A stretch of 54,293 nucleotides of DNA from positions 1 to 54,293 of the forward strand of contig JAKSCV010000089.1 of assembly GCA_022360445.1 (NCBI GenBank), written 5' to 3'. The notes below the pieces were generated by a model. That model was not told the DNA's origin and made no database searches. It saw nothing but the letters and a program-made list of their open reading frames with translations. A program made the position numbers and the translations under genes. Every line of letters begins with the position of its first letter. Within the stretch, counting starts at the first letter, position 1. Below are positions 14,899 to 53,322 of this stretch, in pieces. This stretch comes from Gammaproteobacteria bacterium (GTDB lineage Bacteria > Pseudomonadota > Gammaproteobacteria > UBA5861).

Positions 14899-16083
14899 TT
14901 AACCTAGTTCGTTCCCGACAATGGAGACAAAACTCACACAACGCCCTGGCTGCCCCCCTAGGTTATGTGTCATGCCTAATTTGGGGTTATTAATCTGACG
15001 CTCGCCCGCTTCACCACGCAATTGAAGAAACATTTCGTACATCATGCGCAAGCCGCTGGCCCCAATGGGGTGCCCGAAGCTCTTCAAGCCACCGTCAACA
15101 TTGACAGGTTGTGCACCGTCCCCATCGAAACGACCTTCTTCACAATCTTTCCATGCCTGACCACGCTCAGAAAAGCCCATGTCTTCCATCAAAACCAGCT
15201 CTGTAGCCGTAAAACAGTCATGCACTTCGGCCATGCTGATTTCTTCCCGCGGGTTCGTCACACCGGCTTGCTGATATGCGTCGCTGCATGATGCAACCAC
15301 TTCCTGGAAGGTTGTAAAGTCATAATCCTGGTTCATAAACCCTTCATTCGGGCCAGCAGCAACGGACATTGCCTTCAGGAAGATGGGCTTGTCTGTGTAC
15401 TTGTAAGCATCTTCAGCACGACACAATATGGCCGCTGCAGCGCCATCGCTGACACCTGAGCAGTCAAACACACCAAACATCCCGGCGATGGGCGGTGAAT
15501 TCTTAATCACCTCGAGCGGAACTTCTTTACGAAACTGTGCTTTGGGGTTTTTCGCACCATTGACATGGTTTTTCCAGGCAATCCGGGAGATGACGTCCTT
15601 CATTTTTTCCTCATCGACACCGTACTTTTCGCAGTACGCCGGACCCAGTAACGAAAACATCGCCGGTGCAGTCATGCTGGATTCTGTGCCATCACTGGGC
15701 GGGGTAGGAATCACCAGTCCGGAGTAACCTGAATCTTTAAGCTTTTCGACGCCCACAGCCATGACCAGATCAAATGCACCACTGGCAACCGCATAAGCGG
15801 CATTGCGGAAAGAGTCACTGCCCGTAGCGCACATATTTTCAAGCCGCGTCACGGGCTTATAATCCGTTTTAAGTGCTTCGGAAAGTGTCAAACCGGCCAA
15901 ACCACTGAACATAGTGCCCAGCCAATAGGCGTCCACATCTTTTTTCTCAACACCTGCTGAGCTCATCGCGTCAGTGGCGGCTTCAACCAATAAGTCACTT
16001 GCGCTACGATCAAAGTGCTCACCAAACGCGGTACAGCCCATCCCAACGATCGCAACTTTATCTTTAATTCCTCTACTTGCCAT
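14899..16083 (-). CDS. SCP-x-type thiolase / acetyl-CoA acetyltransferase family protein
   Basis: This 394-residue thiolase-fold protein is of the SCP-x/lipid-transfer class. The nucleophilic Cys is Cys85 in LENMCATGSDSFRNA. His288 lies in AEVHDCFTATEL and His338 in GGLKSFGHPIGASG (331-344). The second catalytic Cys of ordinary thiolases (CxGGGxG) is not conserved; the tail reads THNLGGQPGRCVSF, as in SCP-x-like thiolases that often pair with a DUF35 protein. It lies 12 bases downstream of the HMGCS-like/DUF35 fusion gene. By analogy with archaeal thiolase/HMGCS/DUF35 complexes and steroid-degradation thiolase/DUF35 pairs, it should act together with that protein. The substrate is unknown. 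Confidence 0.92.
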   Translation of the reverse strand: MASRGIKDKVAIVGMGCTAFGEHFDRSASDLLVEAATDAMSSAGVEKKDVDAYWLGTMFSGLAGLTLSEALKTDYKPVTRLENMCATGSDSFRNAAYAVASGAFDLVMAVGVEKLKDSGYSGLVIPTPPSDGTESSMTAPAMFSLLGPAYCEKYGVDEEKMKDVISRIAWKNHVNGAKNPKAQFRKEVPLEVIKNSPPIAGMFGVFDCSGVSDGAAAAILCRAEDAYKYTDKPIFLKAMSVAAGPNEGFMNQDYDFTTFQEVVASCSDAYQQAGVTNPREEISMAEVHDCFTATELVLMEDMGFSERGQAWKDCEEGRFDGDGAQPVNVDGGLKSFGHPIGASGLRMMYEMFLQLRGEAGERQINNPKLGMTHNLGGQPGRCVSFVSIVGNELG

Positions 16084-16095
16084 TGTATTAATCTC

Positions 16096-17475
16096 CTAGC
16101 GCTGCGGACGCGCTTTCCAGAAATAGTTATGAACACCGCTGCCGGTATACAACCGGCGGAACGTCATTTCCAGTTGGTCACCAATTTTCACACTGGCGGG
16201 GTCAACATCGGCCATTTCGCACGTTAACCGACCGCCGCCTTCAAAATCCACAACAGTTGAAACCACGGGCGGTTGAAGGGTATAGGCAAGGTGATCAAAA
16301 GTGTATGTTTTGATTTTACAGGGCACATCAGCAAAAGCTTCTTCTTGCATTTTGTTAACCGCCCCACAGGTTAAACAAACTTGTTGCGGGGGTAAGTAGC
16401 CCGAGTGACACTCTGTACACCGGGACCCATAAAAGCCATATTTCCAGTGCTGGTTCCGTTGCATGGGTGGTGCTGCCGGGCGATCCAGATCCGGCCGACG
16501 TGGGGGTTCAAAGGGCAAAATTTCGCGCCATTTGAGGTACGTATTGTAAGGGATATCATTCCGTGCCGAGGCCATCCAACGGTCAACCGAACGTTTGGGC
16601 CGTCCTGTCGTGATTTTATCGGTCACTTCAAGCACGGCTGCATCACAACCATCACACGTAGAGACCACGAGAATTTTGTCGCCAGGATTCGCTGAATCCA
16701 GCACGCGCGCCAATACCAGGCCGGCATGAGCAGCACCGGCACGACCGATATTCGCTTCCAGCATATCGGCGAGTTGCTCTTTTTGTAGCCCCAATGCGCG
16801 TGGAATACCAGCCACGTCACGCTTATTCGTCGCATCAAGTACCACTGCAGCCAAATCGCCCGGCTGAGTGCCAGCATCTTCAAGGGCACGCTTAGCGGTA
16901 TCGTTACTGATAGGTCCGAGAATTTCAGCCCCAAAACGCTCTTCCCACTGGTTAGCGAATTTTTCTCCTGGCAGGCGCCAAACATCCAAAAGCTCCGTTG
17001 TAGCAGAAGCTTGTCCGATCAAACGGACAATGGCTTCATCATCCGGGCCGGTCACAAATGCGACAGCGGCATCGCCACCACCTTTTTCTCTCGAACCACC
17101 CGGCGCACCGACGACGACATCACTAGTACACACCAAGGCATGTCGCCCCGCTGCCGCTGCATCCATACCCATCAACAATGCCCCTAGCCCCATACGGCTA
17201 CTTGAGCCTATCTCTGTTGAACGAATCGATGACGGCAGGCTTAAAGCCGCCGCAATCGCTGCCGCGTTAAGTTTTTCTGCATAAGGTGGACTGGTTGTTG
17301 CGAACAGAAGTGTATCTACTGCGCTTAAATCCGCATCCCGAGAAGCTTCCACGGCCATAGAAACAGCGTCTTCGTCAAAGCTCGCAATGGCACGCTCACC
17401 TTTACCACCTCCCATCGCTTTCCGAGTTAATCGATAATAGGGCACATAAGCCCCGTAACTAGTTATGCCAGGCAA
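16096..17475 (-). CDS. HMG-CoA synthase-like protein fused to a zinc-ribbon/OB-fold (DUF35) domain
   Basis: The 459 residues form two parts. Residues 1-about 320 have the thiolase-like fold of HMG-CoA synthases (ITSYGAYVPYYRL at the N-terminus, EDAVSMAVEA, GGGDAAVAFV). Residues about 340-459 are a DUF35 module, with a zinc ribbon C353-x2-C356...C367-x2-C370 and then a predicted OB-fold. The acyl-accepting Cys expected in HMGCS is not seen; the region reads TEIGSSSRMGLGALLMG (about 87-103), and no catalytic His motif is evident. It may therefore be a scaffold or CoA-binding partner of the adjacent thiolase. The ATG has a strong ribosome binding site (TAGGAGGAAAG). Confidence 0.85.
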   Translation of the reverse strand: MPGITSYGAYVPYYRLTRKAMGGGKGERAIASFDEDAVSMAVEASRDADLSAVDTLLFATTSPPYAEKLNAAAIAAALSLPSSIRSTEIGSSSRMGLGALLMGMDAAAAGRHALVCTSDVVVGAPGGSREKGGGDAAVAFVTGPDDEAIVRLIGQASATTELLDVWRLPGEKFANQWEERFGAEILGPISNDTAKRALEDAGTQPGDLAAVVLDATNKRDVAGIPRALGLQKEQLADMLEANIGRAGAAHAGLVLARVLDSANPGDKILVVSTCDGCDAAVLEVTDKITTGRPKRSVDRWMASARNDIPYNTYLKWREILPFEPPRRPDLDRPAAPPMQRNQHWKYGFYGSRCTECHSGYLPPQQVCLTCGAVNKMQEEAFADVPCKIKTYTFDHLAYTLQPPVVSTVVDFEGGGRLTCEMADVDPASVKIGDQLEMTFRRLYTGSGVHNYFWKARPQR

Positions 17476-17594
17476 TGTCTTTCCTCCTACAGTCTAATAA
17501 AAGATCTTTTTGACTTCTTCAAGCCTTGCGTTCGACAGGCCTCCGCATTTTAAAAGCATGCCAAACTTTATTGGCTGTTATTGTACGCCTACAC

Positions 17595-18278
17595 TCAAAA
17601 ATTAACACCCAAAGCCAAGCCTAAATCGATTTCTCTTTCAATAAGATCGAGCTGTAAATGGGACTCAATAGAATGCATATGCTCCTCAGTCAATGCAATG
17701 GCAATATCCACGTTCTTGTCGATCAATGCTTGCGCTAACCGTTGGTGCTCTTCCAACGCACACTTCACATCGGTTGTCTCCTGGTATAGCGCGATAATCA
17801 ATGACGTTCGAGTAATCAAGCCTTCAAGCAATTCGGTCATGACACGGTTACCACTGATCTGAGCGATGAGCTTGTGGAACTCGCCAGACTCACGAATCAT
17901 CCGTTGACGATCATTGGCGCGTATCGCCTGCGCCTCTTTTTCTAACTGTTTAAGCAGGGCATTGGCTTTAGCCGGAGTCATTTGTACAACCGCTTGCTCC
18001 ACAACGGCCTTCTCCAGCACTAACCGCGCGCTGAACACATCTTTAGCTTCATCCCGGCTGGGCTGCGCGACCCGCGCACCTTTGTTCGGCACAAGCGAAA
18101 TCACCTTAATTTCAACCGCCAAACGACGTAAAGCCGCTCGAACATGGTTACGGTTCGCTTCCAACAAGCCTGCGATGACTTCTTCTTTAAGCCGAGTGCC
18201 AGGTGGCAGGCGATGCTCGACAATGGCACTCGTTAATACCGACATAATGCGTGTAATTTCTTTTTCAGCGTGACTCAC
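17595..18278 (-). CDS. GntR-family regulator, FCD (FadR-like) ligand domain
   Basis: This 227-residue protein has an N-terminal winged helix (about 8-72; LPPGTRLKEEVIAGLLEANRNHVRAALRRLA) and a C-terminal all-helical FCD domain (about 78-215). His135, His178 and His200 sit where FCD proteins bind a metal that contacts a carboxylate effector, so an organic acid ligand is likely. GTG start with AGGAG 6 bases upstream. It is divergent from the ABC transporter operon. Copies of the palindrome ATTGTTAACAAT occur both in its own promoter and at the ABC gene start, so it probably represses both. The HMGCS-like and thiolase genes lie 119 bases downstream on the same strand and may also be in its regulon. 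Confidence 0.9.
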   Translation of the reverse strand: MSHAEKEITRIMSVLTSAIVEHRLPPGTRLKEEVIAGLLEANRNHVRAALRRLAVEIKVISLVPNKGARVAQPSRDEAKDVFSARLVLEKAVVEQAVVQMTPAKANALLKQLEKEAQAIRANDRQRMIRESGEFHKLIAQISGNRVMTELLEGLITRTSLIIALYQETTDVKCALEEHQRLAQALIDKNVDIAIALTEEHMHSIESHLQLDLIEREIDLGLALGVNF

Positions 18279-18303
18279 ACAGTACTCCTAACTGTCAGAC
18301 CAT

Positions 18304-18315
18304 ATTGTTAACAAT
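18304..18315. promoter_or_regulatory. Operator palindrome in the gntR promoter
   Basis: The perfect 12-bp palindrome ATTGTTAACAAT begins 26 bases upstream of the gntR GTG. On the minus strand a consensus -35 TTGACA (18334-18329) lies 13 bases upstream of it, so the palindrome would overlap the -10 region. TTGT...ACAA half-sites are typical of FCD-type GntR regulators. This suggests autorepression. Confidence 0.7.
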
Positions 18316-18530
18316 TTACCTTCATAGCTGTCAATTTAAATCTCATAAAATTTTCCAATAGACGCACCACCAAAGCACAAACAATCAAAAATCCGCTCTT
18401 TTACGAAGCATTTCTCAGGAGAAATGGAGAAATAACTTGATAAAATTTAATGACTATTTTATGAAATTACAGATAACCCTCTGTAAATCATAAACTCTTT
18501 CGAATCACTTAAAGCCCGGCATAAACCTTG

Positions 18531-18559
18531 TATAACTCATTTAAAAAATTGTTAACAAC
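18531..18559 (+). promoter_or_regulatory. ABC operon promoter -10 with overlapping operator
   Basis: TATAAC at 18531-18536 is a likely -10 element; no good -35 is visible. The second copy of the operator, ATTGTTAACAAC (18548-18559, 11 of 12 bases identical to the gntR copy), follows by 11 bases, spanning the expected transcription start and early leader. A repressor bound there would block initiation of the transporter operon. Confidence 0.6.
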
Positions 18560-18571
18560 TTGATTTTTGTG

Positions 18572-19657
18572 ATGAAGAAAGGCGCTATCGAACTGGTTTG
18601 TATCAATAAAGCTTATGGCAATAAAGAAGCGATTAAGGATATCAGCCTGTCCATTGCTCCGGGCCATTATTGCTGCTTGCTCGGACCAAGTGGCTGTGGA
18701 AAAACGACGACGCTGAAGATCATTGCCGGGCACGAAGCCCCCACCAATGGTGACGTTCTGCTCGACAACCGGAATGTCACAAACTTACCGCCGCGAAAGC
18801 GCGGTACGGCTTTAATGTTTCAGAATTACGCACTCTTTCCCCACTTAAATTGCGTAGACAACACGGCATTTAGTTTGAAAATCGCAGGTGTGGCAAAAGC
18901 CTCACGCCGCGCGCAAGCGATTGAGATGCTCAAATTAGTCAATATGGAGAGCTATGCCGATGTCCTGCCTGACCAGTTATCCGGTGGGCAACAACAGCGA
19001 GTGGCATTAGCGCGCGCACTGATCAATCAACCTGACGTCATCCTTCTCGACGAGCCTCTGTCAGCACTCGACCCTTTCTTACGTGGCAAAATGCGCGTCG
19101 AGCTCAAGCGGATTCAACAACACTTGGGCATCACGTTCGTGCATGTCACTCATTCACAGGAAGAAGCATTCGCCCTATCAGACCAAGTTGTGTTGATGCA
19201 CGATGGCGTGATCGAACAACAGGGCACACCCAGGGAGATTTTTCAGCAGCCAAAAACCGCGTTTGTGGCCCATTTTATTGGTGGACATAATGTCCTGGAC
19301 GGTCAGATCCACCAAAACGAATTTCATACCGGTTCGATACGCGTGAAAGGCCTTACACAAGCACTCAGCAGTGTACCGCGAGACCACTGGCCACAACAAT
19401 TTTCTCTCAGATTTGACCGTATCAAAGCCGCCCCGCAGCCTGACAAAGGACTGCATACACAAGCATTCACGGTAGATGCCGTGGAATACCAGGGAGCCGT
19501 TATTCAGATTCAGGGGCACTATCAAACAGGGCCTGAATTATCGGTCTACGTGAGCGATAAAGCGTTTTTTGCGCACCCGTTTCAATCAGGCCAAGAAATT
19601 TATCTGGGCTGGGAGGCGCACGATCTCAACCCTTTACAACCACCTGTACATTCATGA
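18572..19657 (+). CDS. ABC transporter ATP-binding protein, PotA-like
   Basis: This 361-residue ATPase drives a spermidine/putrescine-type importer. Walker A GPSGCGKT is at 38-45, Q-loop Gln84, signature LSGGQ at 136-140, Walker B VILLDEP at 156-162, and the switch His in VHVTHSQEEA. A C-terminal TOBE-like domain (about 235-361) follows. The frame is open from a TTG at 18560, but ATG at 18572 gives the normal family N-terminus; no clear ribosome binding site precedes either, so a short leader is possible. It is first in a four-gene ABC operon with a racemase-family gene at the end. Homology to polyamine transporters does not fix the substrate. Confidence 0.92.
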   Translation: MKKGAIELVCINKAYGNKEAIKDISLSIAPGHYCCLLGPSGCGKTTTLKIIAGHEAPTNGDVLLDNRNVTNLPPRKRGTALMFQNYALFPHLNCVDNTAFSLKIAGVAKASRRAQAIEMLKLVNMESYADVLPDQLSGGQQQRVALARALINQPDVILLDEPLSALDPFLRGKMRVELKRIQQHLGITFVHVTHSQEEAFALSDQVVLMHDGVIEQQGTPREIFQQPKTAFVAHFIGGHNVLDGQIHQNEFHTGSIRVKGLTQALSSVPRDHWPQQFSLRFDRIKAAPQPDKGLHTQAFTVDAVEYQGAVIQIQGHYQTGPELSVYVSDKAFFAHPFQSGQEIYLGWEAHDLNPLQPPVHS

Positions 19658-19678
19658 CCCACCAAAGGAGAGCACCAA

Positions 19679-21010
19679 ATGAGCCAAGATGACCTGACAC
19701 ACACCAGTGAAGTCCCCCCCTCCGACAACACGTCCCCTGAAAACCCAAGCAGGCGAACATTGATCAAAGCTGCTGGCGCAGCCAGCGGACTGGCTTTAGG
19801 GTCTGGCGCAATAACCGGTTTTCCAATGGTTTGGTCTCAAAACATCAAGAATGTGACGTTGAGGCAATTTGGCACGGGTGTCTCAAACATCAACGCCATC
19901 GCTGAAAAAGCGAAAGAAGATTTAGGGATTAACCTGCAATTAACGGCGCTGGATTCAGATGCCGTCGCCCAACGGGCTGTGACGCAACCAAAATCTTACG
20001 ATATTGCCGATATTGAATACTGGATTGGCAAAAAGGTTTTTCCAGCCGGCGTGATGCAACCACTGGACATTTCACGCCTCAAAAATTTTGACAAAATTTC
20101 CTCACTGTTCGTCACAGGAAAGCTGACAGAGGATTCCACCATCGCTCAGGGGACAGCACCCCACACTGTTGGCTTTGTTGAAAGTAAAGACTCGACCAAG
20201 TTCGCCACAGAGCCCACCAATTGGATGACACTGATCCCCACGATTTACAACGCTGACACCCTGGGTATTCGCCCCGACCTGATCGACCGGCCAATCAAAA
20301 ACTGGAAGGACATCATGGATCCGGCCTTTAAAGGCAAAACCTCGATTCTCAACATCCCTTCAATCGGCATCATGGATGCGGCCATGATTTGTGAATCCAT
20401 GGGTGAAATCCAATATGCCGACAAAGGCAATATGACCCGGGAAGAAATTGACAAGACCATCGACATCCTTAAAGAAGCCAAAAAATCCGGTCAATTTCGC
20501 GCTTTCTGGAAAAGTTTTGATGAGTCTGTGAACTTGATGGCCTCGGGCGAAGTGGTCATTCAATCCATGTGGTCTCCCGCTGTAGCAGCGGTACGCGCCA
20601 AAGGCATTCCCTGCATCTACCAACCACTGGAAGAAGGTTATCGTTCCTGGGGAGGCGGCATTGGCCTGGCCAAACACCTCTCAGGCCTTGAGCTGGACGC
20701 CGCCTATGAGTACATCGACTGGTACCTGTCAGGCTGGGTGGGCGCTTACTTGATGCGCCAAGGCTACTACAGCGCGGCACCTTCAACATCCAAAGCTTTT
20801 ATGTCCGAAAACGAGTGGAACTTCTGGATGGAGGGTAAACCCGCAACAGCAGACATTCTCAGCCCCGAAGGTAAGCTCATGGAAAAAGCCGGGGCCGTGC
20901 GCGACGGCGGATCTTACATGGAACGCATGGGGCACGTGGCCTGCTGGAATTCCGTCATGGATGAAAACAAATATATGATACGCAAATGGAACGAATTCAT
21001 TGCGTCCTGA
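19679..21010 (+). CDS. ABC transporter substrate-binding protein, PotD-like, Tat-exported
   Basis: This 443-residue extracytoplasmic binding protein has a twin-arginine signal: the SRRTLIK motif (Arg25-Arg26) followed by a mild hydrophobic stretch (AAGAASGLALGSGAITGF). The mature part resembles PotD/PotF-type proteins (NWKDIMDPAFKGKTSILN; WSPAVAAVRAKGIPCIYQPLEEGYRSWGGG). Binding-protein residues for amine recognition cannot be assigned with certainty. Export in folded form by Tat is unusual for polyamine binding proteins but common in this wider group. It lies 21 bases after the ATPase gene with a clear AAAGGAG site. Confidence 0.9.
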   Translation: MSQDDLTHTSEVPPSDNTSPENPSRRTLIKAAGAASGLALGSGAITGFPMVWSQNIKNVTLRQFGTGVSNINAIAEKAKEDLGINLQLTALDSDAVAQRAVTQPKSYDIADIEYWIGKKVFPAGVMQPLDISRLKNFDKISSLFVTGKLTEDSTIAQGTAPHTVGFVESKDSTKFATEPTNWMTLIPTIYNADTLGIRPDLIDRPIKNWKDIMDPAFKGKTSILNIPSIGIMDAAMICESMGEIQYADKGNMTREEIDKTIDILKEAKKSGQFRAFWKSFDESVNLMASGEVVIQSMWSPAVAAVRAKGIPCIYQPLEEGYRSWGGGIGLAKHLSGLELDAAYEYIDWYLSGWVGAYLMRQGYYSAAPSTSKAFMSENEWNFWMEGKPATADILSPEGKLMEKAGAVRDGGSYMERMGHVACWNSVMDENKYMIRKWNEFIAS

Positions 21011-21066
21011 TAAAAACCGAGGGCGCTCTCTGCCCCTCTTCTAATGACAATCGTGACAATTGATCC

Positions 21067-21924
21067 ATGAACATATCCGTACGCACACTCCGCAGCTATT
21101 GGCAAATCACGCCACTCAGCCTCGTCCTACTGTGCTTTTTGGTTTTTCCGATTCTCACGATTGTAATCGTCAGTTTTTGGGACTTTAACGCCTATCAACT
21201 GCTACCGGATTTCACGTTCGATAACTACGCCTATTCACTCACATCAGACGTCACACTCAAAGCTTACATAAATACCTTTTTTTACGCCATTGCAACCTGG
21301 TTAATCACACTGACCCTTGGGTTTACCGTCGCCTACTACCTGGCCTTTCACATCGAAAGTAATTTGATGAGAAATTTGCTTTTCATCTTGTGCACCATCC
21401 CCTTTCTAACCTCTAATATCATTCGCATGATTTCGTGGATCCCTCTGCTGGGCCGCAACGGTCTGGTCAATGGCTTGCTCACTGGCAGTGGCATGGTAGA
21501 TCACCCGGTAGAATGGCTTTTGTACAGCGACTTTTCCGTCATTCTGGCGTTTGTCCATCTGTATACCCTTTTCATGGTGGTGCCCATCTTCAACGCCATG
21601 ACCCGTATCGACAAAAAGTTGATTGAAGCCGCTATGGATGCCGGTGCCAGCACCTTACAAACCATCTTTCTGGTTATTGTGCCGCTTTGTAAATCCGGGA
21701 TCGTCGTTGGCACCGTGTTCATACTCACCCTGGTTATGGGAGACTTTATTACTGTACGTTTGATGAGTGGAGGACTGAGCGCTTCCGTCGGTGTGCTGAT
21801 TTATAACGAGATTTCCCTCTTGCAATACCCCGCTGCTGCTGCGGATGCGGTGATTCTGCTGATGACCATCCTGACTATCTTCAGTATTTTGTTCCGTTTT
21901 GTCGATATCAAAAAGGAGCTCTAG
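21067..21924 (+). CDS. ABC transporter permease, PotB-like
   Basis: This 285-residue inner-membrane permease has about six membrane segments. The EAA loop that contacts the ATPase reads KLIEAAMDAGASTLQTIFLVIVPLCKSGIV (about residues 180-209). The N-terminus has the PotB/H-type QITPLSLVLLCFLVFPILTIVIVSFWDF stretch. It forms the channel with the following permease. The gap of 56 bases after the binding-protein gene holds no obvious terminator. Confidence 0.92.
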   Translation: MNISVRTLRSYWQITPLSLVLLCFLVFPILTIVIVSFWDFNAYQLLPDFTFDNYAYSLTSDVTLKAYINTFFYAIATWLITLTLGFTVAYYLAFHIESNLMRNLLFILCTIPFLTSNIIRMISWIPLLGRNGLVNGLLTGSGMVDHPVEWLLYSDFSVILAFVHLYTLFMVVPIFNAMTRIDKKLIEAAMDAGASTLQTIFLVIVPLCKSGIVVGTVFILTLVMGDFITVRLMSGGLSASVGVLIYNEISLLQYPAAAADAVILLMTILTIFSILFRFVDIKKEL

Positions 21925-21926
21925 TG

Positions 21927-22757
21927 ATGGCAACCGGTCAACGAAAACGCGGTTTTATCCCACTCACCCTCCTGTTCAGCGCTTTTCTTGTTTTTTTATA
22001 TGGCCCAACCTTAACCATCGGCATCTTGTCATTTCAGGGCCCCGATGGGGGTTTGACATTTCCCATGAACGGTGTCTCTATCCATTGGTTTAAAGCACTG
22101 TTTGAAGAGCAGCGCGTCGGAGACTTTGGTGGTTCACTGGGCCGCTCACTTCTCTTGGGACTGTCTGTAACAATGCTCAACACCGTATTTGCTTTACTTG
22201 CTGCGCTAGGGTATCGGCGCGCCTTTAAGGGAGCCAATCTGATCTTTTACCTGTCCCTAATCAGTTTAATTCTGCCATCAATCCTGATCAGCTTAGGTAT
22301 CGGAATTATGTTTGATCGACTGGGCCTATCACCCCACTGGTATACCTCCGCTTTCGGTGCCCATATGACCTGGACACTGCCCTTTGGCCTGCTCATTATG
22401 TTCGCAGTTTTCAATCGATTTGATAAAGCCTATGAAGCTGCTGCTGCCGACATGGGTGCCACAAACTGGCAAACGTTCAAGTATGTAGTATTGCCCCTGG
22501 TTTTACCGGGCCTCATCGGCGTCAGCTTATTCAGTTTTACGCTGTCTTTCGACGAATTTAGCCGAACTATCATGACTTCGGGCACATTTAACACGCTACC
22601 ACTGGAAATCTTTGGCATGACCACCAATGTCACAACGCCCGTGCTTTACGCACTGGGCACGTTCACAACAGCTTTGTCCTTTTTAGCCATTCTGACCAGC
22701 CTATTACTCATTGCAGCAAATCGCCATCGCCAATCGCGCCGGGCAGACACGCCATGA
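21927..22757 (+). CDS. ABC transporter permease, PotC-like
   Basis: This 276-residue second permease subunit has about six membrane segments and the EAA loop YEAAAADMGATNWQTFKYVVLPLVLPGLIG. SFTLSFDEFSRTIMTSG follows, as in PotC/PotI-type subunits. ATG at 21927 lies 3 bases after a possible GTG start at 21924; AAAAGGAG at 21911-21918 fits the ATG best. It begins within 3 bases of the previous stop and overlaps the racemase gene by 4 bases (ATGA). Confidence 0.92.
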   Translation: MATGQRKRGFIPLTLLFSAFLVFLYGPTLTIGILSFQGPDGGLTFPMNGVSIHWFKALFEEQRVGDFGGSLGRSLLLGLSVTMLNTVFALLAALGYRRAFKGANLIFYLSLISLILPSILISLGIGIMFDRLGLSPHWYTSAFGAHMTWTLPFGLLIMFAVFNRFDKAYEAAAADMGATNWQTFKYVVLPLVLPGLIGVSLFSFTLSFDEFSRTIMTSGTFNTLPLEIFGMTTNVTTPVLYALGTFTTALSFLAILTSLLLIAANRHRQSRRADTP

Positions 22758-23449
22758 AGATCATGGTCATCAACCCCAATGAAAGTCAGGCGATGACAGC
22801 TATGATTGAAAAAACGTGTGCCGCCTACCTATCGCCAGACACTCAACTGTACGTCCGCTATGGCGGCGCGGGAATGAACAGCATTGAAGGGTTCTATGAT
22901 GGCGCACTGGCCACACCGGGAGTCCTTCGCCATATAGAATACGGCGAAAAAGATGGGATAAACGCTTACATCATCGCTTGCGCGGATGACACCGGTCTTG
23001 ATGCCGGGAGGGAAATCGCCACAGGTCCTGTTGTGGGTATTGGGCAGGTAGCCATGCATGCTGCCAGCATGCTCGGCGCTCAGTTTTCTCTGTTAACGGC
23101 ACAAAGAAAATCGATTCACGTTTTAAAAAGCAACGCCCGGCGCTACGGCTTTGCCAACCAGTGTGCTGGCGTCCATGCCTTGGACATCCCCGTGCTTGAC
23201 CTTGAAGCTGATGATGCCGATCTCAATGAAGCCATTTCACAGCACGCCCAACACATTGTTCATACAGATGCCGCAGAAGTTCTGGTACTCGGTTGCGCAG
23301 GGCTGAGCCGCTATCGAAAACAGCTTGAAGTGTACTTAAACCTGCCAGTCGTAGATGGCCTGGCTGTCGCAATCACCTTTGCCGAAGGCCTGTTCAAAGC
23401 CGGGTTATCAACCAGTAAAGCCAATACCTATCGACGAGCGGCCCGCTAG
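22754..23449 (+). CDS. Asp/Glu/hydantoin racemase family protein
   Basis: This 231-residue protein is of the cofactor-independent Asp/Glu racemase superfamily, close to the hydantoin/allantoin racemase branch. It opens MKIMVINPNESQAM. The two active-site cysteines are Cys76 in IIACADDTGLD and Cys181 in LVLGCAGLSRYRKQL. The superfamily also includes maleate isomerases and arylmalonate decarboxylases, but these have other surrounding motifs. Its 4-base overlap with the permease gene argues that it acts on the imported compound. Its stop codon overlaps that of the convergent hydrolase gene in a shared CTAG. Confidence 0.88.
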   Translation: MKIMVINPNESQAMTAMIEKTCAAYLSPDTQLYVRYGGAGMNSIEGFYDGALATPGVLRHIEYGEKDGINAYIIACADDTGLDAGREIATGPVVGIGQVAMHAASMLGAQFSLLTAQRKSIHVLKSNARRYGFANQCAGVHALDIPVLDLEADDADLNEAISQHAQHIVHTDAAEVLVLGCAGLSRYRKQLEVYLNLPVVDGLAVAITFAEGLFKAGLSTSKANTYRRAAR

Positions 23450-24129
23450 ACCAGTGAAAATGTCAGCTCGGCGAGGCCTTCAACCCGTGCTTCCAGCCGG
23501 TCCCCGCTCTGCACGGCACCGACCCCCGACGGAGTACCTGTAAAAATCAAATCGCCCGGTTGCAAAGTATAAAGGCTGGACAGAATCGAAATCACTTCTG
23601 CGACCGACCAAATCATCTCATGAATACACCCTGCCTGCCGCCGCACGCCATTCACATCTAGTGAAATCAGGTTCTGAAAGGGGTGCCCGCACACACCAAC
23701 CGGTACCAGCTTGGAACACGGTGCCGACTGATCAAATCCCTTACTGGTATCCCAAGGACGGCGTTGGGCTTTTGCCGCGCTCTGTAAATCTCTGCGTGTA
23801 AGATCAACCCCAACCGCGTAAGCAAATACATGGGATAAGGCTTGATTGACAGGGATATCCTGCCCACCTGTTCTCAGAGCAACAACCAGTTCCACTTCAT
23901 GATGCAAGTCCGCTGTTGCAGGTGGATAACGAATCTCTGGTGCACAAATCGCCGCATCCGCCGGTTTGGAAAAGAAAAAAGGCGGTTCCCGACTAGGGTC
24001 ATCACCCATTTCCCGTGCATGTTCGACATAATTGCGGCCCACACAGTAGATACGGTGAACGGGGAAAAACGCTTCACTCCCTGTCACAGGAAGTGCGGTT
24101 CGCGGGGGGGGGTCAAAAACGTATTGCAT
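23446..24129 (-). CDS. Fumarylacetoacetate hydrolase (FAH) family protein
   Basis: This metal-dependent C-C hydrolase or decarboxylase family protein has 227 residues from ATG 24129. Signatures are CVGRNYVEHAREMG, PPFFFSKPADA, DLHHEVELVVAL (the metal-binding Glu region), YAVGVDLTRRDLQ, KGFDQSAP and FTGTPSGVGAVQSGD. Compact members of this size include acylpyruvases and oxaloacetate decarboxylases (FAHD1-like), so a 2,4-diketo acid or acylpyruvate substrate is plausible. The frame extends to 24168, but the ATG at 24129 gives the usual N-terminus. It lies on the opposite strand to the transporter genes on both sides and is divergent from the TRAP operon. Confidence 0.9.
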   Translation of the reverse strand: MQYVFDPPPRTALPVTGSEAFFPVHRIYCVGRNYVEHAREMGDDPSREPPFFFSKPADAAICAPEIRYPPATADLHHEVELVVALRTGGQDIPVNQALSHVFAYAVGVDLTRRDLQSAAKAQRRPWDTSKGFDQSAPCSKLVPVGVCGHPFQNLISLDVNGVRRQAGCIHEMIWSVAEVISILSSLYTLQPGDLIFTGTPSGVGAVQSGDRLEARVEGLAELTFSLV

Positions 24130-24234
24130 CAAATTCACTCTCATCGAATGCATGACCACAGGGGGCAAAAATTGTTAGGATGCCACTTTTGAGCACAACC
24201 ATCCGTAACACGCATACGCAAGGTACAGCATAAC

Positions 24235-25272
24235 ATGATCATCAGAAAAGCCTTTTTGGCATTCGCTTCCATACTACTATTAACAACCGCATCACTCGGC
24301 AACACGGCAGAAATCACGCTCCGAGCGCACCACTTCCTACCCGCAACATCCACAGTTCATACCGTACTGGTTGAACCTTGGGCCAAAAAGGTGGAAGCCG
24401 AATCGAAAGGGCGCATCAAAATCGAACTTTACCCCTCCATGCAACTCGGCGGGAAACCACCCCAACTGTTTAATCAGGTGAGAGACGGTGTTGTCGACAT
24501 TGTTTGGACGCTGCCAGGCTATACTGCTGGGCGCTTCCCAATCATTGAAGTGTTTGAATTACCCTTTGTGTCGGGCAGTGCCAAGGCCACCACACTCGCC
24601 ATGCAGGCATTCGCCACGCAATACTTGCAAGACGAATTCAAGGCGATCCACCCCATTTTATTTCATGCCCATGCCCCCGGCACCTTCCATATGAAAGGCC
24701 AGTCGATTCAAGCCCTCGAAGACCTGAAAAAACTCAAGATCCGCGCACCAACCCGGGTGACCAACAACTTGCTAACCTCTCTGGGCGCCACTGCGATTGG
24801 CATGCCTGTACCTGCCGTACCCCAGGCCTTATCCAAAGGAGTGATTGACGGCGCCCTGCTGCCCTACGAAGTCACACGCTCTCTTAGGGTTCATGAACTC
24901 ACGGACAGCCACACAGCCATTGCCGGCAGCCGGGGAATCTATACCGCCGCCTTTCTTTTTGCCATGAATAAAGCGCGCTATGAATCGTTACCTGATGACC
25001 TGAAAAAAGTCATTGACAACAACTCCGGCTCAAAAATCGCCGCAGCGATTGGCACCGCCTGGGACAAAGCAGAGAAACCCGGTCTGGAGGCTGCTAGAGC
25101 TCTGGAACATGCCTTTTTTGAAATACGTGATGAAGAACTGGATCGTTGGAAAGCCGCAACACAACCGGTAATCAATACCTGGGTTCAAGACATGGATAAA
25201 AAAGGCTATCCAGGACAGGCAATACTGGACACGGCTCGTCAGCTTGTTGAGCGTCACTCAACACCGAAATAG
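24235..25272 (+). CDS. dctP: TRAP transporter substrate-binding protein
   Basis: This 345-residue periplasmic binding protein is of the DctP family, with a Sec signal peptide of about 25 residues (hydrophobic core AFASILLLTTASLGNTA). Family features are a LRAHHFLPATSTVH start, GRIKIELYPSMQLGGKPP, DIVWTLPGYTAGRFP, and LKIRAPTRVTNNLLTSLGATAIGMPVPAVPQAL, which carries the conserved Arg that contacts the ligand carboxylate. An organic acid ligand is therefore likely. It is first in a dctP-dctQ-dctM operon. Confidence 0.94.
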   Translation: MIIRKAFLAFASILLLTTASLGNTAEITLRAHHFLPATSTVHTVLVEPWAKKVEAESKGRIKIELYPSMQLGGKPPQLFNQVRDGVVDIVWTLPGYTAGRFPIIEVFELPFVSGSAKATTLAMQAFATQYLQDEFKAIHPILFHAHAPGTFHMKGQSIQALEDLKKLKIRAPTRVTNNLLTSLGATAIGMPVPAVPQALSKGVIDGALLPYEVTRSLRVHELTDSHTAIAGSRGIYTAAFLFAMNKARYESLPDDLKKVIDNNSGSKIAAAIGTAWDKAEKPGLEAARALEHAFFEIRDEELDRWKAATQPVINTWVQDMDKKGYPGQAILDTARQLVERHSTPK

Positions 25273-25288
25273 TATAGGCCAAAACGCC

Positions 25289-25783
25289 TTGTCCCCGATC
25301 ACGCGACTCGCAAACGGCGCAGCCGTCTGCGGCGGGATCATACTGATTTTGCTGGCACTGATGACACTTGTCAGCATTCTTGGGCGGGCATTGTTTTCCA
25401 TGCCCGTTCCAGGTGACTACGAACTGATGGAAACAGGCTGTGCGATCGCAGCGTTTGCTTTTTTACCCTATGCGCAAGTAACCGGCCACCACATTATTGT
25501 GGCATTTTTTTCCCGTCACTGGCCTGCCCCGCTTTGCCACTTTCTTGATACGGTCGCTCACCTGACCTTCTCACTCATTGCAGCATTACTTTTCTGGCGC
25601 GCGGCACACGGTGGACTGAATTTTTATCGCGATGGCGACACTAGCATGATTCTGGCCATACCGGTTTGGTGGGCTTTTCCCACTATCGTCTTTTGTCTGG
25701 CCATTTTGATACTCACTTGTCTACAAAGTGCGTACCGCAGTTGGCAGCAACTCAAGGCACAGCCTGCAGGAAACTCGCGATGA
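25289..25783 (+). CDS. dctQ: TRAP transporter small membrane subunit
   Basis: This small permease subunit with four predicted membrane segments has the DctQ pattern GRALFSMPVPGDYELMETGCAIAAFAFLPYAQVTGHHIIVAFF. There is no ATG at the N-terminus. The frame is open from a TTG at 25244 inside dctP; TTG at 25289, after the dctP stop and 10 bases past an AGG, gives a normal-length protein of 164 residues and is preferred. It overlaps dctM by 4 bases. Confidence 0.9.
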   Translation: MSPITRLANGAAVCGGIILILLALMTLVSILGRALFSMPVPGDYELMETGCAIAAFAFLPYAQVTGHHIIVAFFSRHWPAPLCHFLDTVAHLTFSLIAALLFWRAAHGGLNFYRDGDTSMILAIPVWWAFPTIVFCLAILILTCLQSAYRSWQQLKAQPAGNSR

Positions 25784-27090
25784 GCCTGTTATTAATCGGT
25801 GTTCTCGCCTTCCCGGTGCTGTTTATCTTTATGTTATTAAGAGTGCCTATCGGGCTGGCCATGTTACTGGTGGGGGGGCTGGGTTACTTGTCGATTCGAG
25901 GCGGGGGGCCGCTGCTTGCTTACCTGCAAACGGGCCCGTTTTATACCTTTTCCAATTACTCGCTGTCAGTGATTCCTCTGTTTTTGCTCATGGGCCAGTT
26001 TGCAACACAGGCCGGATTAAGCCAGGCTTTGTTCAACGCCGCACAAAGTTGGCTGGGCCATCGCCGAGGAGGACTTGCAATGGCCACGATTGCCGGGTGC
26101 GCCGGGTTTGGTGCTATTTGCGGCTCGTCACTTGCCACAGCGGCCTCGATGGGCCAAGTCGCCCTCCCCGAGATGCGCCGCCACCGTTATGCCGGTGGAC
26201 TGACCACCGGAGTCCTCGCTGCTGGCGGCACGCTGGGTATTCTCATCCCCCCTTCAATTATTTTAATTATTTATGCCATTTTGACGGAACAAAATGTCGC
26301 CAGCATGTTTGTCGCCGCCCTAATCCCGGGCCTCTTGGCCGTCGCAGGATACATCGTGGCCATTCACATCATTGTGACGCTGTCCCCCAGTGCCGGACCT
26401 GTTACGGTAAAAGCCAGCCGCTCCCAACGGATCAAGGCACTGTATGAAACCTGGCCAGTCTTATTCATTTTTAGTCTCGTCATTGGTGGCATTTATGCTG
26501 GTATCTTTACGCCCACGGAAGGAGCCGCTGTAGGGGCTGTTTGCACAGGGCTTCTGGCTTATGCTCGTGGCCGATTGGACAAAACAACATTAATCGCGGC
26601 GATTCAAGGCACTGCGGGTGCCTCCGGCATGATTTTCCTGATTCTGCTCGGTGCCGACGTTTTCAACAGTTTTTTGGCCCTCACACAACTACCCGTTACA
26701 GCAGCTGACTTTGTTGAGGCAATGGCGTGGTCACCTTTTGTTGTTCTGATGGCTATCTTAGGACTGTATTTGTTGCTTGGTTGCATGATGGACAGCTTGT
26801 CGATGATTTTGCTCACGATCCCAGTATTTTTCCCCATCATTGCTCAGTTAGACTTCGGCTTAACCCCGGACGAGACCCTGATCTGGTTTGGCATTCTCGC
26901 TCTGATTGTCGTTGAAATGGGGTTAATTACGCCGCCCGTAGGCCTGAATGTTTTTATCATTAGCACGCTGGCAAAAGATATTTCGATGGCGGAGACTTTC
27001 AAAGGCGTGCTGCCCTTTTTATTGAGCGACATCATACGAGTTGGTTTGCTTATTGTCTTTCCATCACTGAGTTTGGGGTTACTCCGCTAA
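25780..27090 (+). CDS. dctM: TRAP transporter large permease subunit
   Basis: DctM is the sodium-coupled transport subunit, with about 12 membrane segments in 436 residues. Family stretches include RVPIGLAMLLVGGLGYLSI, VIPLFLLMGQFATQAGLS, GFGAICGSSLATAASMGQVALPEM, GGTLGILIPPSIILIIYAILTEQNVASMFVAALIPG, FTPTEGAAVGAV and MGLITPPVGLNVFI. The open frame extends to 25666 but the ATG at 25780, overlapping the dctQ stop as ATGA and 8 bases after AGGA, is the real start. Confidence 0.95.
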   Translation: MSLLLIGVLAFPVLFIFMLLRVPIGLAMLLVGGLGYLSIRGGGPLLAYLQTGPFYTFSNYSLSVIPLFLLMGQFATQAGLSQALFNAAQSWLGHRRGGLAMATIAGCAGFGAICGSSLATAASMGQVALPEMRRHRYAGGLTTGVLAAGGTLGILIPPSIILIIYAILTEQNVASMFVAALIPGLLAVAGYIVAIHIIVTLSPSAGPVTVKASRSQRIKALYETWPVLFIFSLVIGGIYAGIFTPTEGAAVGAVCTGLLAYARGRLDKTTLIAAIQGTAGASGMIFLILLGADVFNSFLALTQLPVTAADFVEAMAWSPFVVLMAILGLYLLLGCMMDSLSMILLTIPVFFPIIAQLDFGLTPDETLIWFGILALIVVEMGLITPPVGLNVFIISTLAKDISMAETFKGVLPFLLSDIIRVGLLIVFPSLSLGLLR

Positions 27091-51067: not shown

Positions 51068-52309
51068 GTGTCATTACTTAGCTTGGTTCAACGCCGTCTC
51101 AGTATTGTGATGATTCTGATTGCAGGCGGTATTCTTGCCCAGGTACTCAGGACATCCACTGCCGCCATCGCGCCGGATTTAATGCGTGATATTGGCTTCT
51201 CCCCCGATGCGCTCGGGGTTTTAACAGGTGTTTTTTTCCTCACCCAGGCCTTGATGCAAATCCCGGTTGGCATTCTCATCGACCGCTTTGGTGGGCGTCT
51301 GACGATCAGTGGGCTTTACACCATTGCCGTTGTCGGCGCACTGATTTTTGCGGTCTCAGAAACGTTTAGCGGGTTGACGCTGGCCCGTGTGTTAATGGCA
51401 ATCGGTATTTCCGGGGCAATCATTGGCGCTTTTGTGGTCCTGGAGAGCTGGTTTTCCAGCGATAAGCTTCCACAAATGGCCGCCTTGCAGATTTCTGCCG
51501 GACAAATCGGTGTGCTGTTGGCAACCGCACCACTGGCCTTTGCTTCTGAACTCTTTGGCTGGCGCAATGTATTTCTGGGCTTATCCATTATCACGGCGGT
51601 TATGGTGCTGTCGATTTTTTCCATCCTCAGGGATGCGCCACCAGATCACCCCATCAGCGCCTCTAAGCAGGAGTCCCTCAAAGAAAATCTGAATGGCGTG
51701 CTGGCGGTTTTTCGCAACCGCTATGCCCCATTTTTCTTTGTAATGGTGTTTGTTGCTAATCCCGTTGTGGTCTGTGTCTTGACATTACTGGGAGGACCTT
51801 TTTTGTTTGACACCTATCAACTCGGCGCAGTGGAGCGTGGCCATGTGCTCTTTGGCATGGGAGCCACCGCAATGCTTTCGCCTTTGCTGTTTGGCCAGCT
51901 ACAACGGTGGTTCAGCATTCGGCAGTTAGTACGAGGGGGAGCCGTTTATGCGGCCGCCATCTGCCTGGGATTGGCACTCATACCTTCCGCCCCTTTGTGG
52001 CTGACAAGCCTGCTGATGATTATGCTCGGCTTTTCAGGGGGCTACGCTGTTCTGATTTTTACCGATGGCCGCCGCTACTTTCCCGCTCATTTAGCCGGGC
52101 GCTCAATGACAGCCTTGAATATGGCCCAGATGTCAGGCATGGCGGCTATTCAGTTTGCCGCCGGCTTTTTTCTCAGCTTATTCCCATTGACGGGTGGCCA
52201 CCCCTCGCTGTTGGCGTACCGGGCAACCTTTACACTCCTGGCCGTGATCGTGTTATCCGCTTACCTGATCTACCGGCGTATTCCGCCTCTGACAACCAAC
52301 TCCGGCTAA
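51068..52309 (+). CDS. Major facilitator superfamily transporter
   Basis: This 413-residue transporter has 12 predicted membrane segments. The MFS loop 2-3 signature appears as GILIDRFGGRLTISGL, and the N-terminal TSTAAIAPDLMRDIGFSPDALGVLTGVFFLTQALMQIPVG is typical of the nitrate/sialate-like and drug-efflux-like MFS branches. The substrate is unknown. The GTG start follows GGAGG by 5 bases. It ends overlapping the convergent luciferase-like gene by 4 bases (CTAA). Confidence 0.9.
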   Translation: MSLLSLVQRRLSIVMILIAGGILAQVLRTSTAAIAPDLMRDIGFSPDALGVLTGVFFLTQALMQIPVGILIDRFGGRLTISGLYTIAVVGALIFAVSETFSGLTLARVLMAIGISGAIIGAFVVLESWFSSDKLPQMAALQISAGQIGVLLATAPLAFASELFGWRNVFLGLSIITAVMVLSIFSILRDAPPDHPISASKQESLKENLNGVLAVFRNRYAPFFFVMVFVANPVVVCVLTLLGGPFLFDTYQLGAVERGHVLFGMGATAMLSPLLFGQLQRWFSIRQLVRGGAVYAAAICLGLALIPSAPLWLTSLLMIMLGFSGGYAVLIFTDGRRYFPAHLAGRSMTALNMAQMSGMAAIQFAAGFFLSLFPLTGGHPSLLAYRATFTLLAVIVLSAYLIYRRIPPLTTNSG

Positions 52310-53322
52310 CCCCGTGTGATTTGCTGTAAGGCCTGGATCATCTGCTGTTTGGCTTCACCTTCGGCAAAATTAAAGTCGCCCGATGTTCGGTCAATCACAT
52401 CACCATAGCGTTTTTTAATGCCCGCCACGACGTCACCAGGCTCTGCAACGATAGCAATCTTGTTCAGCAAAGCCTCCTCAATCTGTCCGCCCATTTCATC
52501 CCATAATCCTTTTTTGGACATGGCATTCAGTTCACCTTGCAGACCCGGGTAACCTTCGATTTCTAACACGCCTTCGTAGGCGGGCGTGGAGGCATAAAAC
52601 GCGATGCGCTTGCAGGCGGCCACTCGGTTTTGTTGAAACTCATCCTCATTACGGCCGGAGATCACAAAAGGGTTAAACGCAATTTCAAACTGTGCTCGCG
52701 TGCGGCCACTGACAGCCAGGCCCTTTTCCAGGTTTGGGAGGGTCACTTCACGCATGTATTTTTCGGTGGTAAATGAGTGAGCGATCACCCCATCAGCCAC
52801 TTCGCCGGCAGTTTGACACATCAGCGGACCTACCGCCGCGATGACGATGCGGGGCTTCCCGTAGGGAGAAGCTGGCGCAGAGAACATGGGTGTCATTAAA
52901 GTATGCGTATAAAACTCGCCTTGGAAGTCCAGTGGCTTGCCAGCATACCAGCTATCCCAAATGGCATGAATGGCCTGGAGCAACTCTTTCATTTTCCGAG
53001 CCGGGGCGCCCCAAGGCATGCTGAAACGCTTGGTGATATGCGCCTTGACTTGTGATCCCAAGCCCAATGTAAAACGCCCTTGGGAAAAGACATTCAAATC
53101 ATGCGCAACACTGGCCAACGTCAGTGGGCTGCGGCCGAACCCAACAGCAATGCCCGTACGTAATTCCAGTTTTTTACTGTGCTCTGCAACCAGTGTTAAG
53201 GGTAAAAAAGGATCGTTGTAAAGCTCCGTACTGCGAATACCATCAAATCCCATGTTTTCGTAATAAGTTGCACCGTCCAATGCCGTGGCTAGTTCATTAC
53301 TCAAATCACCATCAACCTTCAT
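52306..53322 (-). CDS. Luciferase-like (LLM class) flavin-dependent oxidoreductase
   Basis: This 338-residue TIM-barrel oxidoreductase is of the bacterial luciferase/F420-dependent superfamily. Typical stretches are GFDGIRSTELYNDPFLPLTLVAEHSKKLELRTGIAVGFGRSPLTLASVAHDLNVFSQGRFTLGLGSQV, PRIVIAAVGPLMCQTAGEVADGVIAHSF, and SGRTRAQFEIAFNPFVISGR. It resembles the TIGR03617-type group first defined in F420-using actinobacteria. Whether this one uses F420 or FMN cannot be decided from the sequence; no F420 biosynthesis gene is in the window. The substrate is unknown. Confidence 0.88.
   Translation of the reverse strand: MKVDGDLSNELATALDGATYYENMGFDGIRSTELYNDPFLPLTLVAEHSKKLELRTGIAVGFGRSPLTLASVAHDLNVFSQGRFTLGLGSQVKAHITKRFSMPWGAPARKMKELLQAIHAIWDSWYAGKPLDFQGEFYTHTLMTPMFSAPASPYGKPRIVIAAVGPLMCQTAGEVADGVIAHSFTTEKYMREVTLPNLEKGLAVSGRTRAQFEIAFNPFVISGRNEDEFQQNRVAACKRIAFYASTPAYEGVLEIEGYPGLQGELNAMSKKGLWDEMGGQIEEALLNKIAIVAEPGDVVAGIKKRYGDVIDRTSGDFNFAEGEAKQQMIQALQQITRG

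Follow-up and report, generated by a model that had tools for sequence, protein, structure and literature searches.

In the archaeal complex of thiolase, HMG-CoA synthase (HMGCS) and DUF35 protein, the synthase uses up acetoacetyl-CoA and is thought thereby to pull an uphill condensation. In PhlABC, the chemistry is performed by residues of PhlC only; PhlA is without the Cys and Glu, its cavity lies next to the active site of PhlC, and the whole operon with all three subunits is required for function (PMC6392133). An HMGCS-like partner without the Cys is already known, therefore, from PhlA (PMC6392133) and also from MucA. The BktB and PhaA thiolases of Haloferax contain an OB-domain subunit that is indispensable, with specificity being set by the thiolase subunit (PMC7137286). 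The edc cluster of Novosphingobium tardaugens includes EGO55_13555, an annotated 'HMG-CoA synthase' gene, which was one of two estrogen edc genes given no step and which the authors of that study doubted to condense anything (PMC7793797).

The DNA analyzed here, termed the window, is a stretch of 54,293 nucleotides from a gammaproteobacterium. The initial annotation described an HMGCS-like/DUF35 fusion without a visible catalytic Cys, an SCP-x thiolase encoded 12 bases downstream and an FCD-type GntR regulator ahead of both genes, and proposed that the fusion had either lost synthase chemistry and become a CoA-channeling partner or was using another residue. Among the papers searched, none names or describes the HMGCS-like/DUF35 fusion. 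What looks new is that the two parts are fused, that the fusion is widespread and that it occurs in operons for acyl-CoA catabolism.

The fusion gene and the adjacent thiolase gene

The fusion gene is located on the reverse strand at positions 16096 to 17475 and encodes 459 amino acids from a TTG start codon, with a ribosome-binding site, AGGAGG (17483 to 17488), 7 bases 5′ of this codon; all of the elements of the pair described below are on the same strand. Residues 1 to 322 (16510 to 17475) form an HMGCS-like domain of the thiolase superfamily, as judged from a fold match to 6et9_I, and a Pro/Arg-rich linker with a conserved PPRRPD motif (residues 323 to 339; 16459 to 16509) connects this domain to a DUF35 unit (residues 340 to 459) consisting of a zinc ribbon and an OB-fold. 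The zinc ribbon spans residues 348 to 372 (16360 to 16434), with its CxxC...CxxC cysteines at positions 353, 356, 367 and 370, and the OB-fold (PF01796) region spans residues 376 to 459 (16099 to 16350).

The HMGCS-like part was matched by NF003274 over residues 3 to 320 (3.2e-47; 161.3 bits, below the curated cut-off of 244) and by TIGR00748 (4e-30; 105.2 bits, below the curated cut-off of 353.35), with a score of 103.8 bits, again under the cut-off, in a search of the organism's own genome. The best solved relative by sequence was PDB 6esq_I. For the DUF35 part, PF01796 scored 34.9 bits, above the gathering cut-off of 27.1, and matched all 64 of the family members scanned, DUF35 being fused in every one; zf-ChsH2 (PF12172) was sub-threshold in the window protein, at 16.5 bits, and was detected in 56 of the 64. 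The pattern is not a product of chance, as a pattern scan of species genomes detected 290 loci with the fusion. The best 80 of these were kept and are skewed to close relatives because the scan utilized peptides from the window protein. Each of the four zinc-ribbon cysteines was retained in 76 of these best 80 loci, while all eight residues of a C-terminal motif, GVHNYFWK (residues 447 to 454; 16114 to 16137), were present in 80 of 80 close relatives and YFWK in 100 of 100 members of a wider set. Such near-absolute conservation at the DUF35 C terminus is unusual in a scaffold tail, and this motif may extend to the thiolase or the CoA site.

An AlphaFold2 model of the fusion, generated from an input that included 64 family members, had a mean pLDDT of 91.4 and a pTM of 0.92, and the sole stretch with a pLDDT below 50 was residues 327 to 334 of the linker. 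The best match of this model was 6et9_I, the HMGCS of the archaeal complex (Z 42.9; rmsd of 1.9 Å over 321 residues), followed by PhlA (Z 41.2 and 39.9) and MucA (Z 38.0); stand-alone HMG-CoA synthases reached at most Z 35.3. As modeled, the fusion most resembles, among solved folds, the synthase-like subunit of each of three thiolase/DUF35 complexes. The profile matches and the predicted fold agree, in line with the initial annotation, that HMGCS-like and DUF35 parts are present in one protein.

The spacer between the fusion stop codon and the thiolase ATG was confirmed as exactly 12 bases (16084 to 16095), and the AGGAG of the thiolase gene (16093 to 16097) overlaps the fusion stop codon, an arrangement that suggests translational coupling. 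The thiolase gene (14899 to 16083) encodes an SCP2-thiolase-like 'acetyl-CoA acetyltransferase' of 394 amino acids, which scored 604.9 bits with NF004810 (curated cut-off, 403), contains HDCF and GHP motifs and has Cys85, His288, Cys290 and His338, all four of which were invariant in the thiolase alignment. No SCP2 domain was detected in a Pfam scan of this protein, in contrast to SCP-x proper, which has such a domain at its C terminus. A model of the thiolase was weaker than that of the fusion (pLDDT 73.9) and had SCP2-thiolase and 6esq_A as its top matches (both Z 44.2), followed by BbsB, PhlC and MucC; Ltp2 (Z 37.3), Sal (Z 36.3) and classical thiolases (Z of 33.5 or less) were more distant.

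Loss of the synthase residues

Alignment to 6esq placed the catalytic Cys114 at Ser93 of the window protein, the catalytic Glu at Thr61 and the catalytic His at Asp214. Ser93 is part of EIGSSSRMG (residues 88 to 96; 17188 to 17214), the sequence that the initial annotation had picked out as occupying the position of the HMGCS Cys, and is followed by a near-invariant Arg94. The alignment check for a conserved active-site Cys was extended to 104 fusions from bacteria and haloarchaea (100 bacterial, three haloarchaeal and one further bacterial), and none had a Cys at this column. Among the 100 bacterial fusions, the column was occupied by Thr (29), Ser (20), Val (18), Gln (10), Ile (7), Pro (5), Leu (4), Ala (3), Arg (2) and Gly (1), with one gap, and ranked 38 of 322 for variability. 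Other positions were retained: a DED motif (residues 34 to 36), common to the fusions, 6esq, PhlA and MucA, and Arg180 were both present in 104 of 104 fusions and Arg94 in 100 of 104. In a comparison with L004, a relative from the same genus, dN/dS was 0.063 for residues 1 to 322 and 0.036 in the surroundings of the former active site, the thiolase having a value of 0.023, indicating that the HMGCS-like domain is under strong purifying selection and is not decaying.

The initial proposal that synthase chemistry had gone gained in strength: the whole family is devoid of the Cys and Glu and does not conserve the His, and this chemistry has very probably been lost from the fusion. It is exceedingly unlikely that the protein remains a synthase with another nucleophile, for example, Ser93 or a different Cys. 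While the window protein does have a Ser, Ser93, at the Cys column and both the fold and the domain are well preserved, this column contains Val, Ile, Gln, Pro, Leu, Ala or Arg in about half of the relatives, and a Ser nucleophile is improbable at a column that varies so freely. Furthermore, the catalytic Glu was present in none and the catalytic His in only 2 of the 100 bacterial fusions, and no conserved Cys was found anywhere in the HMGCS-like domain, the best candidate, Cys277, being kept in 37 of 104 fusions. The suggestion that another residue had replaced the Cys was, hence, not borne out.

Distribution and genomic surroundings of the pair

The best 80 of the 290 loci were mainly from Gammaproteobacteria, Acidobacteriota, Myxococcota, Binatota, Actinomycetota, Rokubacteria and Chloroflexota, with the addition of a Bacillota genome. 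In 76 of these 80, a thiolase gene started within 320 bp of the fusion; of the other four, two had a thiolase within 2.2 kb, one was located at the end of its contig and the last, L015, had none nearby. A search of 398 Pseudomonadota genomes gave matches in 10, including that of the window, and the other nine contained ten fusions (31 to 36% identity), all without the Cys and eight with an adjacent thiolase. Annotated plasmid regions from 14 bacterial relatives all had an 'acetyl-CoA acetyltransferase' gene next after the fusion; in three haloarchaeal plasmids (L119 to L121), the order was reversed, with the thiolase preceding the fusion in every case. The pair is, thus, spread over many bacterial phyla and some archaea. 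One of the haloarchaeal loci (L120) has its Cys-less fusion near phenylacetate-degradation and UbiD genes.

Pairwise identities of the fusion and the thiolase were correlated (r = 0.94 over 96 pairs), with shared species history contributing to this value. In a tree obtained by a short search with one archaeal synthase as the reference, a branch with an SH-aLRT of 97 separated the fusions from PhlA, MucA and 6esq, a topology consistent with a single fusion event. No natural three-part protein with the thiolase joined to the fusion was seen among the loci read. Close relatives had no conserved operon partner besides the thiolase, the other common neighbors being housekeeping or lineage-specific genes. 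Conserved gene order, parallel distances and folds drawn from thiolase/DUF35 complexes all support the initial view of the fusion as the partner of the adjacent thiolase.

The two proteins could instead be co-expressed and physically separate enzymes, with the fusion being an acyl-CoA-binding protein with a role of its own. In its favor, a role in the delivery of acyl-CoA has been suggested for DUF35 (PMC2954200). This explanation is very unlikely, however, as the thiolase is the only fixed neighbor of the fusion and DUF35 mediates the contact with the thiolase in solved complexes (PMC12329534, PMC6392133). A complex is less easily reconciled with the fusions of L015 and of a distant relative, L141, for which no recognizable thiolase was detected, 5.8 kb downstream being read for L015 and 5.8 to 7.8 kb across the two loci.

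In the 14 plasmid regions, the pair was surrounded by genes for CoA ligases, acyl-CoA dehydrogenases, enoyl-CoA hydratases, MaoC and SDR proteins and, often, ring-hydroxylating oxygenases. Gammaproteobacterial relatives near the window had no conserved catabolic neighbors around the pair; hence, the degradative direction rests on the more distant relatives. A synthetic or non-thiolase function, such as C-acylation as in PhlABC, tetramate acylation as in MucABC or retro-aldol side-chain cleavage as in Ltp2 and Sal, has to be considered since these four systems have the same thiolase-like plus DUF35 plan and all appear in the fold lists, and since Sal relies on a YDC motif and not on thiolase chemistry. 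We regard such a function as unlikely: the window thiolase has HDCF and no YDHF or YDCY aldolase motif, Cys85 and His338 are kept, and the annotated neighbors of the pair are beta-oxidation enzymes, with no biosynthetic clusters.

The gene order in Novosphingobium sp. ES2-1 (L112) corresponded, gene for gene, to that of the edc OpA operon of N. tardaugens, with a Cys-less HMGCS-like/DUF35 fusion, and then a thiolase, at the position of the 'HMG-CoA synthase'. EGO55_13555 is presumably also a Cys-less fusion, as judged from operon order. The ES2-1 plasmid p3 (L112, 1 to 19365) was observed to carry, in addition to the fusion pair in this estrogen-type edc operon, a second pair composed of a lipid-transfer protein and a DUF35 protein.

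The genome containing the window had 9 matches to DUF35 and 11 to the thiolase C-terminal family. The eight other DUF35 proteins (L084 to L091) were short, had no HMGCS-like domain and were encoded beside SCP2-type thiolase-like genes, indicating that DUF35 alone usually suffices; the HMGCS-like part presumably contributes something particular to this pair. Eight stand-alone DUF35 genes is a seemingly large set for a genome of 3.5 Mb. A role in the mevalonate pathway was also considered, and a search of the genome gave no HMGCS-like gene besides the fusion. Elsewhere in the window (52306 to 53322), an F420-dependent LLM oxidoreductase of the TIGR03617 family (406.8 versus 278 bits) was detected.

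The FCD-type GntR gene noted initially is real (17595 to 18278, reverse strand; FCD domain PF07729, 3e-20), and 119 bp lies between its end and the fusion gene downstream. It was rejected as a candidate regulator of the pair: this adjacency was restricted to the window's own genus (L004, L102 and L125), and the more distant GntR relatives that were read had neither the fusion nor ABC genes alongside. The link to the pair is probably incidental and is no guide to function; the regulator, located immediately upstream of an ABC operon with divergent orientation, may serve that operon. Positions 17595 to 27090, containing the GntR gene, the divergent operon of spermidine/aminoethylphosphonate type, an Asp/Glu-racemase-like gene, a gene of the fumarylacetoacetate-hydrolase family and a TRAP transporter, seem to make up a distinct unit for uptake and catabolism, whose synteny with L004 extends at least as far as the racemase-like gene. 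Promoter-like sites were at chance level (4 versus 5.0 expected).

A putative degradative thiolase complex and its relation to known systems

The two genes probably encode a degradative thiolase complex, with the fusion contributing DUF35 as a clamp and a catalytically inactive domain as a wall of the cavity; a physical complex, a thiolytic direction and the cavity role are all features that we infer by analogy. In this heteromeric enzyme, the SCP2-type thiolase would be the sole catalyst, taking the acyl group onto Cys85 with the assistance of His288, Cys290 and His338. The fusion would represent the two non-catalytic parts of the archaeal type of assembly joined together, with the DUF35 domain clamping the thiolase and the dead HMGCS-like domain still shaping a shared cavity for CoA and the acyl group or, at least, serving as a scaffold. 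As catabolic thiolysis would be downhill and need no pull, the synthase residues could have become dispensable while the domain stayed. The substrates across the family are most likely unusual fatty-acid-like, aromatic or steroid-like molecules.

A broader interpretation, to which we would give slightly less than an even chance, is that the pair represents an ancient class of two-gene degradative thiolases, with a dead synthase as a cavity wall that admits bulky aromatic, alicyclic or steroid acyl-CoAs. If true, this would account for the estrogen-degradation 'HMG-CoA synthase' that was left without a function. Current annotations of the fusion ('HMG-CoA synthase', '3-oxoacyl-ACP synthase III C-terminal domain', 'OB-fold protein' and 'hypothetical protein') suggest anabolism, and reading it as a dead thiolase partner would correct the annotation at several hundred loci. 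The fusion would also provide a natural case of a pathway enzyme becoming a structural subunit once the reaction that it served ran in the opposite direction.

Among known systems, the archaeal complex (6esq, 6et9) has all three types of part in common with the window pair and provides the nearest fold match to the fusion (Z 42.9) and a joint best match to the thiolase (Z 44.2), but its parts are three separate proteins and its synthase is active, with Cys114 and Glu82, whereas in the window two parts are fused and these residues are gone. The Haloferax BktB and PhaA alpha/beta thiolases are similarly encoded by two genes and have an indispensable OB-domain subunit but, unlike the window thiolase, have reported Ser-His-His catalytic residues. 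Ltp2-ChsH2, Sal-Shy and BbsAB resemble the pair in having a catabolic SCP2-type thiolase-like enzyme, in their case bound to DUF35, but have no HMGCS-like domain, and Ltp2 and Sal are aldolases. EGO55_13555 of the edc cluster (PMC7793797) shares the operon order of the ES2-1 locus and is likened to the fusion by this order. PhlABC (5M3K, 9SKH) has, like the window pair, an HMGCS-like subunit without Cys and Glu (the Cys column of PhlA being Gly), a DUF35 protein and one active thiolase, but it is composed of three separate proteins and performs CoA-independent C-acylation in antibiotic biosynthesis. MucABC (9VBO) likewise has an HMGCS-like subunit that lacks the Cys, with Glu in this column by alignment, and keeps DED, but it is an acyltransferase complex of separate subunits from Streptococcus macacae with 20 to 21% identity. 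The fusion, therefore, has the traits of the PhlA and MucA type, namely, loss of Cys and Glu, retention of DED and a thiolase encoded alongside, but departs from this type in the fusion of DUF35 (64 of 64 members) and in its separate placement in the tree.
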